Assembly (NCBI RefSeq): GCF_002251855.1
Contig: NZ_NOXW01000020.1
Coordinates: forward strand, 434,001 to 498,000
Reading direction: 5' to 3'
Source: Rhodoferax sp. TH121
GTDB lineage: Bacteria > Pseudomonadota > Gammaproteobacteria > Burkholderiales > Burkholderiaceae_C
Length of the DNA: 64,000 bases
The notes under the pieces are model-generated. The model had not been told where the DNA came from and searched no databases. It was given only the letters and a program-made list of their open reading frames with translations. Shown piece by piece: positions 1,110 through 40,607 of this stretch (the first letter of the stretch is position 1; the number at the start of each line of letters is the position of its first letter). Made by a program: the position numbers and the translations under genes.

Positions 1110-1643
1110 CTAGCGGCTCAAGGGCAGGGAAGTCACCAGGCGGGTGCCGGCGAGTGCATCGTGCCAGAACTGACGTTGGGGGTGAAAGCGGCTCAACAAG
1201 GCCCAGATGGCAATCCAGCCAGCCACGATGACAAAAATTTCTGGTGCACCAAGTCGGAATGGTGCAACGGCGGCCAGCGGTGGCAAAAACCATAGCCAAC
1301 TCAGAACATAGCGCCCCAATGCCCGACCTTGCGTGACGGCGCGCCCTTTGCTGTCCACCAGCCGGATATTCCACGTCTTCATGGGGAGTGTTTGACCATG
1401 GGCCCAGCACCAGACGAAATAAATGCCAAAAATGACAAAAAGAAAAGTGATCAGAAGTGGGCGCCGCGGGTCGATACCGCTGCGCATTTGCCCCAAGGTG
1501 CTAAACAGCCAGGTCGCGAGGAACGCCACTGCAAACAGCAAGATGCACTCGTATAGCCAACTCGCCATACGTCGCCGCAGGCTAGGAGCGTTTAAGGACA
1601 GAGACGGCAACGAATGGGCTGGCGAAGTTTCGGTGAGCGACAT
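1110..1643 (-). CDS. RDD family membrane protein
   Basis: The 177-residue protein begins with a short polar stretch and an R-R-x-A-S segment, followed by hydrophobic helices around residues 30-50, 65-82 and 120-150, as in RDD proteins. The conserved TWNIRLVDSKG segment follows the second helix. Function in this family is mostly unknown; some members take part in sodium or proton exchange. It lies 18 bp upstream of dgkA in the same direction. Confidence 0.8.
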   Translation of the reverse strand: MSLTETSPAHSLPSLSLNAPSLRRRMASWLYECILLFAVAFLATWLFSTLGQMRSGIDPRRPLLITFLFVIFGIYFVWCWAHGQTLPMKTWNIRLVDSKGRAVTQGRALGRYVLSWLWFLPPLAAVAPFRLGAPEIFVIVAGWIAIWALLSRFHPQRQFWHDALAGTRLVTSLPLSR

Positions 1644-36791: not shown

Positions 36792-38144
36792 ATGAACATC
36801 GTAGTCAACACCTCCGACATTTCCCGCGCGCGCGAAGAACTCGCCGGATGGGCTGGCGCTCTGGATGCCAAGCGGCCCACCGCCTGGAACCAGTACGGAT
36901 ACCCCGTGGAGGTCACATTCCAGCAGTTGCTAACGGCCTACGAGCGCGGAGGCCCAGCACAGGGGGCAGTGCACCGCATCTTGGACAAGTGCTGGCAGGA
37001 CTTACCTCGCATCAAGCAGCCCGACGCGGACAAGCCCACGCCCTGGGAAACCAAGCTATCCAAGCTGCTGAAATCGGTGCGCGCATGGGCCAAGCTGCGC
37101 GACTTTGACCGCCGCAACATGGTGGGCCGGTATGCTGGACTGATCTACCGGGTAGCCGACGACAAGACATTGAGCGAGCAGATGGACAAGGCCAGCAAGC
37201 TGGTTGACCTGATCCCGGTGTTTGAGGATCAGCTCAAGGTCACGAAGTGGCACAGCGACCCCAACGACCCGGACAACTTCGGCAAGCCTGCCATGTTCCA
37301 GTACCGGACACGCCTGCAGAGCGCAACCGACACCCAGGCCCAGCCCGACAAGTGGGAGGACGTTCACCCAAGCCGCGTGCAGATCCTGGCCGAGGGTAGC
37401 GTTGGCAACATGTTTGAGGGCGTGCCGCTGCTGAAAGCAGGTTTCAATTCGCTGGTGGACATCGAGAAGATCAGCGGGGGCAGTGCCGAGAGCTACCTCA
37501 AGAACAGCGCCCGGACCATCGTTTTCAAGTACGACGCCAATGCCAGCGTGCAGGCCCTCACCACGACCCCAGACGGCCAAACAAAGACCGTGCGCGAGGT
37601 GCACGAAGAGCAAACCCGCTCCCTGAACCGAAACCAGGACAGCTCCATTGTTTTGCAGGGCGGCGAGGCAGACGTTTTGAAGACCGCCACCAGCGACCCC
37701 GGCCCAGCGTTTGAGGTGGCGGCCAACCTTTTTGCGGCTTCGGTGCGCATTCCGTTCACCATCCTTTTTGGACAGCAGACCGGGCGGCTGGCAAGCGACG
37801 AGGACAAAGCGGACATGATCGCCCGCTGCGTGAGTCGCCAAGAAAACGAACTCACGCCCATGCTGGAAGAGTTTGTGACGCGCATGCAGGCGGCCGGGAT
37901 CATTGAGCCGGGTGAGTTTGAAATCGAATGGCCTCCACTGGACGCCCCGGGCGACGATGCCAAATACGGATTGCTGGACAAGCTGACCGCCGCCATGCAG
38001 AAGGCGTTTCAGTCTGGGCTGTCGGAGCCACTGTTCGACGCCAATGAGCTGCGCGGGGTGGCTGGGTTTGAGACTAGGGTTGACGATGGCATGCCAACCG
38101 AAGGCGACCCGGCCAAGGGTCAAGACACAAACGGCCCTCCCTAG
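36792..38144 (+). CDS. Portal protein, DUF1073-like
   Basis: The 450-residue protein fits the DUF1073 portal family: central HPSRVQILAEGSVGNMFEGV, stem-like IPFTILFGQQTGRLASDEDK and a C-terminal half ending in an acidic, disordered tail. It forms the dodecameric DNA gate at one capsid vertex. The stop codon TAG lies inside motif copy 3. Confidence 0.88.
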   Translation: MNIVVNTSDISRAREELAGWAGALDAKRPTAWNQYGYPVEVTFQQLLTAYERGGPAQGAVHRILDKCWQDLPRIKQPDADKPTPWETKLSKLLKSVRAWAKLRDFDRRNMVGRYAGLIYRVADDKTLSEQMDKASKLVDLIPVFEDQLKVTKWHSDPNDPDNFGKPAMFQYRTRLQSATDTQAQPDKWEDVHPSRVQILAEGSVGNMFEGVPLLKAGFNSLVDIEKISGGSAESYLKNSARTIVFKYDANASVQALTTTPDGQTKTVREVHEEQTRSLNRNQDSSIVLQGGEADVLKTATSDPGPAFEVAANLFAASVRIPFTILFGQQTGRLASDEDKADMIARCVSRQENELTPMLEEFVTRMQAAGIIEPGEFEIEWPPLDAPGDDAKYGLLDKLTAAMQKAFQSGLSEPLFDANELRGVAGFETRVDDGMPTEGDPAKGQDTNGPP

Positions 38145-38148
38145 CATT
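38137..38148 (+). repeat. CTCCCTAGCATT motif, copy 3
   Basis: Overlaps the portal stop codon. The usual gene start just downstream is missing; an endonuclease gene follows after 79 bp. Confidence 0.8.
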
Positions 38149-38226
38149 AGTTGTGCGGATAGGGATGCACCCCGAAAAGCCTTAAGCAAGCCTGCCGCCT
38201 TCGTTGTGCTGTGCAAGGGGCTTGCC

Positions 38227-38727
38227 TTGAAAACTGAACTCACCGCAGAACGTCTGCGCGAACTACTCCACTACGACCCAGAGACCGGGGTGTTTACCTG
38301 GGCGAAGGCTCGCAAGGGTCAGAAGGCTCCCGCTGGCAGCGTCGCGGGCTATCTTGAAAAAGATGGTCATTGGGGTATCTGCGTAGTGGGGCGGCACTAT
38401 CGCGCGCACCGCCTCGCATGGCTGTATGTTCATGGGAGCTGGCCGGCCAACGAGATCGACCACCGTAACGGCATCAAAACAGACAACCGAATCACGAACC
38501 TCCGCGATGCCACGCGCACCGTCAACGCCGAGAACCTGAGGCAGGCGAAGAGCAATAACTCCTGTGGCTTGCTCGGCGTCTACCTCCATAAGTCCAGCGG
38601 GCTATGGCACGCACGGATTAAGGTCGGCGGCAAAGTCACATCGCTCAAGTACCACGGCACCAAAGAAGCGGCGCATGAGGTGTACATCAGGGCTAAGCGT
38701 GAGCTGCACGAAGGATGCACCATCTGA
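38227..38727 (+). CDS. Free-standing HNH homing endonuclease with AP2-like domain
   Basis: TTG 38227 is preceded by AAGGGG. The 166-residue protein has an HNH_3 core (YRAHRLAWLYVHGSWPANEI with DHRNGIKTDNRITNLRD) and a C-terminal AP2-like DNA-binding domain (GVYLHKSSGLWHARIKVGGK). Such nucleases are selfish intercalated genes. It separates portal and MuF genes that normally adjoin, and its TGA overlaps the MuF start (ATGA type). Confidence 0.87.
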   Translation: MKTELTAERLRELLHYDPETGVFTWAKARKGQKAPAGSVAGYLEKDGHWGICVVGRHYRAHRLAWLYVHGSWPANEIDHRNGIKTDNRITNLRDATRTVNAENLRQAKSNNSCGLLGVYLHKSSGLWHARIKVGGKVTSLKYHGTKEAAHEVYIRAKRELHEGCTI

Positions 38728-40607
38728 TGGTCAAACAGTCGTCATCAAACCCAATAATCCCCGGTAACGTCAAGGATAGAACTGGTACAGCCGGGATTCT
38801 TCGCAGGGCCAACGCCGAGATTAAAAAGCGGTATGCAGGGCTATCGCGTGAAGTTCTCGAAATCTTCGACCGCATACCTGTATTTGCGCTGAATGATGCG
38901 GCTGATCGCGTCCTGTATGGGATGACTCCCGAGCAAATGGCGGTCTTGTCCGCAGAGCTGCAGGCGGCAGTCGAGCGATGGATAGCATCGGGCCGCGACC
39001 CTGCATATTCATTTTGGTGGAATCAGTATGCGAGTGAAGCAAGCCACCTGGGTACGGCCCAAAGCGTGGCGAACCTGACCAACCTGTCGGCCACCTATGC
39101 CGCGGCGCGCTCCATTGAAACGGTGATTTACAGCCAGCCCTACCAGACCCGGCTGGGCATGGCTCAGATCAAGTCCTACGAGCATTGGACGGGCTTGGCC
39201 GCAAGCCAAAAGGCAGAGCTGGCCCAGATCATCGGGCGGGCCGTGGTGGACGGAAAGAACCCCAAGGCGGTGCGCACTGAAATCATGGAGCGGCTGGAGG
39301 TGAGTCGCAGCAAGGCGGCGCAATATGCCCAGACCGACATCACAGACACGTTGCGGCAAGCGCGCTGGGCCGAATCGGAGTACACCAGCGAGACGCTGGG
39401 CATCAAGATCGGGATGCTGTGGACTTCGGCGCTGCTGCCGACGACAAGGGCCTGGCACGCCTCCAAGAATGGGAAGGTGCTGACTACCGAAGAGGTGAGG
39501 GCGTTCTATTCGGTGAACGGGAACCGCTACAACTGCTATCTACCCGGCACTCGCGTGGCTGGTCGATTCGTTGCTGGCGCCAAATCTCGATACAAGGGGC
39601 CTGCCGTGCGTCTGGTGACTGCTAGTGGTCGCGAGTTGGCCGTTACCGCGAACCATCCCGTGATGACCAGTCGGGGATTGGTTGCGGCTGCAGAAGTCAG
39701 CAAAGGCGACAATCTGATTGCATACCTCGGCCAACAGGAAGACCCGACGGGGGTGGTTAACCTGAATGGTGAGTTGGTTAGCTCCAGAATCGAGGATGTG
39801 TTCAGTGCGCTTGTGGATTCTGGACATCAGCGGCTTGCCAGGGTGTGCGGAGTAGATTTCCACGGCGACGCGGCTTTCATGCAGCCAGACATCGAGGTTG
39901 TAGACGCCGAACGGGTGCTGCCCGTCGCAATGAATCCCGCGCTGGCGCAGCTCCTCGATGACCTCTCTTTCGTACATCCCGACTCGTCTGCTGCGGCTCG
40001 CAGAGCGCTTGAGCCTCTCTCCAATCGACACATCGCGGTTTCGAGCGGCGGCGTTCGCGGCTGCAACGTTTCTACGCCTCTCATCGGGGGAGATGTGGAT
40101 GGACTTGGTGCGCTGGGCCTCACTCATATTTCTGGTGGACAACCCGGCGTCATGGATGGCGCGGGTGATGGCTTCGCGAGTAATTCCAAGACGTTTGCTC
40201 ATAGAGAGAATGGATTCTCCCGCCATGTGAGCGGCGTGAAATTCAGCGGCGCGCAAGGCATGACGGGACCGAGCCCATTCATTCCAGCGGAACCCGGCCT
40301 TGTGGAAGGCCTCCATCAGAGTTCGATCACTGATGCCGAGGCTGTGCGCAATGTCCTTGAAGCATTCACCGGCCTTGCTTCTTTCGATGAGGTTGTTGAT
40401 GTTGTCCGGAGTGAGTATGACGGGCATGTATTCGACCTGCAGGAGTTGAGTGGACTCATGCTAGGGAGCGGAATAGTTGCGTCAAACTGTCACTGCTCCC
40501 AGACCGAGGCTCTGCTAGACGCCGATGGCAAGCCCATCCTCACCAAGAAATTGCAATCCACTCTGAGCAATGAGCTGTCAGCGTGGAAGAAGAATTACGC
40601 TAAGTAG
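38727..40607 (+). CDS. MuF-like head morphogenesis protein interrupted by an intein
   Basis: ATG 38727 overlaps the HNH stop. The precursor is 626 residues. The N-terminal extein (residues about 1-269) has the helical MuF region (TRLGMAQIKSYEHWTGLAAS, AAQYAQTDITDTLRQARWAE). The C-terminal extein begins CHCSQTEALLDADGKP. Joining gives RYN-CHC, the Asn-Cys-x-Cys end typical of MuF domains. The protein is a minor capsid component that assists head assembly. The intein must splice out to restore this motif. Confidence 0.88.
   Translation: MVKQSSSNPIIPGNVKDRTGTAGILRRANAEIKKRYAGLSREVLEIFDRIPVFALNDAADRVLYGMTPEQMAVLSAELQAAVERWIASGRDPAYSFWWNQYASEASHLGTAQSVANLTNLSATYAAARSIETVIYSQPYQTRLGMAQIKSYEHWTGLAASQKAELAQIIGRAVVDGKNPKAVRTEIMERLEVSRSKAAQYAQTDITDTLRQARWAESEYTSETLGIKIGMLWTSALLPTTRAWHASKNGKVLTTEEVRAFYSVNGNRYNCYLPGTRVAGRFVAGAKSRYKGPAVRLVTASGRELAVTANHPVMTSRGLVAAAEVSKGDNLIAYLGQQEDPTGVVNLNGELVSSRIEDVFSALVDSGHQRLARVCGVDFHGDAAFMQPDIEVVDAERVLPVAMNPALAQLLDDLSFVHPDSSAAARRALEPLSNRHIAVSSGGVRGCNVSTPLIGGDVDGLGALGLTHISGGQPGVMDGAGDGFASNSKTFAHRENGFSRHVSGVKFSGAQGMTGPSPFIPAEPGLVEGLHQSSITDAEAVRNVLEAFTGLASFDEVVDVVRSEYDGHVFDLQELSGLMLGSGIVASNCHCSQTEALLDADGKPILTKKLQSTLSNELSAWKKNYAK
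39540..40427 (-). CDS. Homing endonuclease-like protein encoded antisense inside the intein
   Basis: This 295-residue frame lies wholly within the intein on the opposite strand, codon against codon. Residues about 7-46 and 69-96 form helix-turn-helix units (AGESILSMSKRLGITREAIT). NMSEAQ and a basic linker follow. Residues about 152-245 look like a Vsr/DUF559-type nuclease (FGVYNLDVWLHESRVAVEIY, Asp and Glu in place). The last 50 residues look like a read-through tail opposite intein blocks A and B. The start has only a weak AGG. Confidence 0.72.
   Translation of the reverse strand: MPVILTPDNINNLIERSKAGECFKDIAHSLGISDRTLMEAFHKAGFRWNEWARSRHALRAAEFHAAHMAGESILSMSKRLGITREAITRAIHDAGLSTRNMSEAQRTKSIHISPDERRRNVAAANAAARNRDVSIGERLKRSASRSRRVGMYEREVIEELRQRGIHCDGQHPFGVYNLDVWLHESRVAVEIYSAHPGKPLMSRIHKRTEHILDSGANQLTIQVNHPRRVFLLAEVCNQIVAFADFCSRNQSPTGHHGMVRGNGQLATTSSHQTHGRPLVSRFGASNESTSHASAG
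40457..40468 (-). repeat. CTCCCTAGCATG motif, copy 4 (minus strand)
   Basis: Lies 29 bp upstream of the antisense nuclease start and is read on the plus strand as intein residues Leu-Met-Leu-Gly-Ser. Confidence 0.8.

Follow-up and report, generated by a model that had tools for sequence, protein, structure and literature searches.

In a 64,000-nucleotide stretch of Rhodoferax sp. TH121 (assembly GCF_002251855.1, contig NZ_NOXW01000020.1, positions 434,001 to 498,000; hereafter the window), the gene for a MuF head-morphogenesis protein is interrupted by an intein, and the DNA of that intein also encodes a predicted homing endonuclease on its opposite strand. The MuF precursor lies at 38715..40607 on the plus strand (PF04233, E 1.8e-7; phrog_758, E 2.7e-83). 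The host gene is not split, since a single continuous plus frame covers 38715-40607. The intein comprises 318 codons (39534..40487, plus strand), from Cys1 (TGC, 39534-39536) to a terminal Asn (40485-40487). Cys+1 comes next and opens the C-terminal extein (40488..40604, plus strand), which in intein-free relatives is fused directly to the N-extein. The antisense gene of 295 codons (39540..40427, minus strand) lies wholly inside the intein, its codon boundaries coinciding with those of the intein, and ends in a TAG stop that pairs with the Leu codon CTA of the intein at 39540; its recognition draws on the open frame, its relatives, a fold model and selection tests. We conclude that the arrangement of MuF intein and antisense nuclease is real and conserved, and that it combines two known kinds of component in a new way.

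The plus-strand insert was recognized as an intein by its motifs, an alignment of 24 rows and a structural model, the intein profiles scoring under their curated cut-offs (PF14890, 26.2 bits vs 35.8; TIGR01445, 21.1 vs 24.5). Block B reads TANHPV (39645..39662, plus strand), with N40, H41 and P42 invariant, and Cys1, the T, N and H of block B, the terminal Asn and Cys+1 are likewise invariant in the 24 rows. Block F reads GHVFDL (40422..40439, plus strand), and the CAT codon of its His pairs with the ATG of the antisense frame. The penultimate position before the terminal Asn is Ser in the window and His in four distant rows (L049-L052); a His at this position is usual in inteins, but it is not universal. 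The AlphaFold2 model has confident HINT-like ends, and its best matches in the PDB are mini-inteins (Foldseek E ~0.01). The precursor thus combines Cys1 and a TxxH block B with a terminal Asn followed by Cys, and the insert is absent, exactly and in frame, from a number of homologous host genes.

The antisense frame would begin at the ATG within block F, preceded by a Shine-Dalgarno-like GCAGG (40436..40440, minus strand) that is weaker than the GGAG or GAGG of many relatives. Further upstream is a candidate weak promoter-like match (TTGACG, 16 nt, TAGCAT; 40458..40485, minus strand). Two helix-turn-helix units are predicted, the first at residues 7-43 (40299..40409, minus strand) from AlphaFold2 helices and weak profile matches, and the second at residues 60-93 (40149..40250, minus strand) from AlphaFold2 helices. 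They are followed by a Vsr/I-Bth0305I-like nuclease core at residues 151-248 (39684..39977, minus strand), assigned from the model, the alignment and fold matches and carrying E153, D179 and E190. Profile and fold searches with the antisense protein matched Vsr, I-Bth0305I and DUF559-type nucleases. In a 31-row alignment D179 and E190 are invariant and E153 nearly so, and the three positions align with the E, D and E of 3hrl. With regard to a full EDxHD motif, His195 is nearly invariant in closer relatives and not in the diverse set. The Pfam family MTES_1575 (PF18741) matches 16 of the 31 nuclease relatives at E 0.01 or better and the window protein at 14.5 bits, below the curated cut-off of 38.2. 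By its predicted catalytic fold and acidic residues, the product belongs to the Vsr/EDxHD/DUF559-like nuclease superfamily, with the reservation that the alignments given to AlphaFold2 were shallow (25 and 24 rows for the two proteins). The first-pass annotation, made from the letters of the window, had described the intein with Cys1, TANHPV and the Asn-Cys junction, the in-register minus frame with TAG opposite CTA, and a product with two helix-turn-helix units and a nuclease core, and it was right in these details. It had also proposed checks by profile search, by the openness of and selection on both frames in homologous inteins, and by comparison with intein-free MuF alleles; profile matches to known nucleases, homologous inteins open on both strands, selection on the minus strand and intein-free alleles at the exact insertion site were all found.

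The arrangement is not confined to the window. Database searches returned 12 relatives of the minus-strand protein, two of them named very-short-patch-repair endonuclease by JGI, and 37 of the intein. With the nuclease as query, 30 loci were found in viral contigs, and the intein was on the opposite strand in all 30. In the reverse search, which makes the fairer test and for which the query was the intein N-terminal block alone, at least 530 stretches encode a relative. Among the best 80, some of which are on contigs already retrieved by the nuclease search, a nuclease-profile match lies opposite the intein in 79; the contig of the remaining locus (L089) ends 58 codons into the intein, and a few others hold a partial nuclease because the contig ends. 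Thus, in the sampled family (the best 80 of at least 530), an antisense nuclease is the usual arrangement and not a single oddity. The minus frame remains open in relatives with as little as ~21-30% identity. Carriers include named phages of Pseudomonas, Salmonella, Klebsiella, Gordonia, Vibrio, Cronobacter, Edwardsiella, Rhodococcus and Idiomarinaceae, plasmids of Promineifilum and Streptomyces, and genome contigs of Atlantibacter, Rhizobium, Acidimicrobiaceae, Anaerolineaceae and another Chloroflexi bacterium. Where Pfam recognizes the exteins they are minor-capsid proteins (MuF in 40 of 60 frames, Phage_min_cap2 in 5 and VG15 in 3). Bacterial genomes with a nuclease match are few, 2 of 200 in the family of the window and 8 of 398 in its phylum. 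Three of the matched genomes, that of the window included, have a full-length nuclease, in each case antisense to an intein. The other eight matched loci (L182-L187, L189 and L190) have relatives of the nuclease core and no intein match, with seven frames of 135-172 residues and one of 407, and are possibly free-standing kin.

Annotation has mostly missed the antisense nuclease. Only 1 of 20 intein-bearing records, that of Salmonella phage PK2, has an entry for the in-register antisense frame, labelled a hypothetical protein, in a survey that includes plasmids with incomplete gene tables. The annotation of Escherichia phage Snoke marks the intein and leaves the opposite frame unmarked. The record of Salmonella phage vB_StyS-sam (L192) lists an antisense gene within the MuF intein (1241-1642, minus strand) in a frame that differs from that of the nuclease, probably a spurious call.

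Intein-free alleles and exchanges between alleles point to mobility. Intein-free genes from Salmonella, Pseudomonas and Klebsiella are shorter by 816, 807 and 975 nt, which correspond to inteins of 272, 269 and 325 codons, and their flanks align straight over the junction. The closest intein-free MuF relative of the window (L140), with an N-extein 87% identical, reads GNRYN-C without interruption. Among 41 MuF loci near that of the window, the intein is present in 13 and absent from 28, as judged by how far the frame extends past the match. The Gordonia phages Vivi2 and Sedona (L037 and L047) share 234 of 235 N-extein residues and 457 of 470 C-extein residues, yet their inteins are only 35% identical; in two Salmonella phages, by comparison, the inteins are 89% and the N-exteins 64% identical in nucleotides. 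These comparisons indicate patchy presence at a fixed site together with exchange between alleles, the pattern of a homing element. Two further loci, L091 and L095, have stops within the nuclease frame and an intact intein frame; such loss of the nuclease with retention of the intein looks like a natural stage of decay, as would be expected of a homing enzyme.

We consider it very probable that the intein splices and that the antisense-encoded homing nuclease cuts the intein-free MuF site, repair then copying both. In such a cycle the MuF-intein precursor would be translated and the intein would splice itself out to leave mature MuF, and a transcript of the opposite strand would be translated from the ATG in block F, giving a protein that joins two helix-turn-helix units to a Vsr/EDxHD-like nuclease core. 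This protein would recognize and cut the uninterrupted site (GNRYN-C) in an intein-free phage genome, where repair from the intein-bearing copy would insert intein and nuclease gene together. The nuclease lies outside the spliced chain, and its expression could therefore be uncoupled in time from capsid synthesis; no longer tied to the capsid transcript, it could work early in infection or in a lysogen. If this is true, expression of the homing enzyme would be separated from that of the capsid protein.

An alternative, which we regard as unlikely, is that the nuclease is real and has some other role, such as defence against competing phages, the shared locus being a matter of history. Cleavage at the MuF site is a step that we infer, and related short DUF559-like proteins exist without an intein, both of which would suit this alternative. 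However, every full-length nuclease found was antisense to an intein, at all 30 viral loci and in all three distinct genomes, the nearest folds of the nuclease include the homing enzyme I-Bth0305I, and a PADLOC search gave no match. The persistence of the intein at the two loci where the nuclease is broken is again the pattern of a homing enzyme, and patchy presence with exact empty sites fits homing.

A second alternative is that the antisense frame is a by-product of codon bias and of selection on the intein, with no protein made. GC-rich genes do tend to have open codon-aligned antisense frames, and the chance of finding no antisense stop is only modestly low for single members, 1.2e-3 for the window and 2.3e-2 for L001, so that the weight of evidence comes from the family. 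Because codon bias can keep an in-register antisense frame open, we made three tests. In the first, the expected number of stops between blocks B and F was taken from the extein codon usage of each gene. In 65 representatives (15,819 codons), 3 antisense stops were seen vs 402 expected, all of them in L091 and L095, whereas the exteins of the same genes have 435 in 26,324 codons. A wider set of 87 representatives has 4 stops vs 531 expected, and 84 are free of stops over this span; the others are L091 and L095, in which the nuclease frame is truly interrupted, and L044, where the end of the span must have been miscalled, as its intein has no antisense stop.

The second test made use of the phase of the overlap, in which position 1 of a plus-strand codon is position 3 of a minus-strand codon, and measured selection by codon-position counts. 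Across 13 pairs, the ratio of position-1 to position-3 changes stays below 1 in block F/G (0.24), the N-extein (0.47) and block B (0.80), and it rises to 1.38 opposite the nuclease core and 1.58 opposite the helix-turn-helix region; changes thus favour the position that is silent on the minus strand. Residue changes tell the same story, with a minus-to-plus ratio of 0.74 in the core and 0.64 in the helix-turn-helix region vs 1.96 in the extein. In 41 intein pairs, many of them very diverged, the position ratio is 1.16, with position 1 higher in 31 of 40 informative pairs, compared with 0.56 in the exteins, where position 1 is lower in 23 of 23. Over the 8,746 codons of these pairs there are 3,799 residue changes on the minus strand vs 4,418 on the plus strand. 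The minus-strand signal weakens with divergence, but there is no overall reversal. The pairs share no sequence, yet some come from one clade and are not fully independent, and sequences without the motifs were excluded (35 of 110 in the 13-pair analysis; 11 of 110 in the 41-pair and 87-representative analysis).

The third test concerned the translation start. Block F was recognized in all but 22 of 98 representatives, and 6 of the remaining 76 have a residue other than His at the position in question. In the 70 that have the His, its codon is CAT (minus-strand ATG) in 61 and CAC (minus-strand GTG) in 9, and CAT makes up only 11 of 75 block B His codons and 137 of 320 extein His codons. Both the 61 antisense ATG codons (29.9 expected, maximum 40) and the Shine-Dalgarno-like sites in 45 of the 70 (11.5 expected, maximum 20) exceed every one of 300 synonymous shuffles. 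The GCAGG of the window is weaker than the pattern counted, and the window is not among the 45. The same 300 shuffles gave no convincing enrichment of promoter-like sites (12 vs 6.2 expected, maximum 14). These tests show, at the level of sequence, that the family maintains both reading frames, with the antisense frame under purifying selection, and that block F contains the start codon of the nuclease and, in many members, also a ribosome-binding-like site. Together with the predicted nuclease fold and conserved acidic residues of the product, they make the by-product explanation very improbable. That the minus-strand nuclease is the real element and the plus frame a tolerated in-frame linker in MuF is scarcely credible: residues 147-266 of the intein are modelled as disordered, the intein profiles score low and the penultimate His is absent, but the splicing residues are invariant, plus-strand residues of blocks B and F/G are strongly conserved, the modelled ends adopt a HINT fold closest to mini-inteins, and insert-free MuF joins exactly at the Cys.

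How the two proteins share the DNA is less simple than the first-pass annotation proposed. It had held that the functional parts hardly collide. In one respect this stands, as the splicing ends of the intein face the C-terminal tail and the start of the nuclease, and the disordered stretch (147-266) faces nuclease residues 33-152, mostly the DNA-binding part. However, the parts do collide where nuclease residues 154-215, within the core, face not just linker but intein residues 84-145 (39783..39968, plus strand), a segment that also appears mostly folded (mean pLDDT 81-90 as far as residue 140), so that two predicted folded segments would share 186 bp. The fold confidence of this intein segment could be flattered by conservation imposed from the opposite strand. 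On balance we favour, with some reserve, a view in which a whole class of minor-capsid inteins is a gene written on two strands. All base pairs of the nuclease gene would also code for intein, block F would double as nuclease start and ribosome-binding site and block B as the C-terminal tail, and nuclease core and intein subdomain would stand codon against codon over those 186 bp. Each partner would depend on the other for spread, and two unrelated folds would be kept in proteobacterial, actinobacterial and Chloroflexota carriers. Some members are shorter: inteins of 268-269 codons (L018, L020, L027-L032, L034, L035 and L048) have antisense nucleases of about 233-245 residues without roughly one helix-turn-helix unit, a deletion in frame on both strands.

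Ordinary inteins carry a LAGLIDADG or HNH endonuclease domain within the same polypeptide, and those that seem to have none tend to be called degenerate or immobile. The MuF intein resembles ordinary inteins in its proposed spread by a site-specific endonuclease and differs from them in having the nuclease on the opposite strand. In the fractured genes reportedly described by Dassa et al. in 2009, split inteins have a free-standing Vsr-like endonuclease gene between their halves. As in the MuF case, the intein has as its partner a nuclease of Vsr/EDxHD type that is not part of the spliced chain, but there host gene and intein are split around the nuclease gene, whereas here the intein frame is unbroken and the same base pairs are shared. 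The first-pass annotation knew of no description of an intein whose nuclease is encoded antisense to it, and we found none in the full-text literature as represented by titles, abstract openings and passages, a body of text that leaves out most subscription journals and preprints. The nearest described case is the ShiLan insertion in phage DNA methylases, a hidden HNH endonuclease with no detectable intein or intron and nothing that splices (PMC11855218). As in MuF, a phage gene holds an in-frame insert that stays open and is overlapped by the frame of a homing-type nuclease, and the insert is patchy and apparently mobile; but the ShiLan nuclease is read from the same strand in a different frame and has no splicing domain (PMC11855218), and the MuF nuclease is antisense, in register and inside an intein. 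Other described systems show more distant parallels. I-Bth0305I (3r3p), of the EDxHD homing family, is a mobile-intron protein (PMC3943268), unlike the MuF nuclease, which lies within an intein and is I-Bth0305I-like by predicted fold. Group I introns of Porphyra rDNA also have homing genes antisense to a splicing element, but their sense strand is an extension of the intron RNA, and no two proteins share codons (PMC2585584). A Mu F (gp30) intein in a Methylococcus capsulatus prophage, likewise hosted by a MuF-family head-assembly protein, was described in 2004 as having no recognizable endonuclease and as perhaps immobile (PMC517821).

If a nuclease may lie on the other strand, verdicts of degeneracy or immobility such as that on the Methylococcus capsulatus intein (PMC517821) need rechecking. 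The overlap is also of interest in its own right. Every codon of the shorter of two long proteins is also read, antiparallel and in register, for the longer one, and selection can be measured on both, so that the old question of sense-antisense coding becomes directly testable.

The MuF locus of the window also holds a second selfish nuclease. Just upstream, a free-standing homing-type endonuclease gene with HNH_3 and AP2-like domains (38044-38727, plus strand) overlaps the listed start of MuF. The listed ATG falls within this overlap (38715-38727), and a database copy of the protein (P0013, 626 aa) begins four codons downstream.
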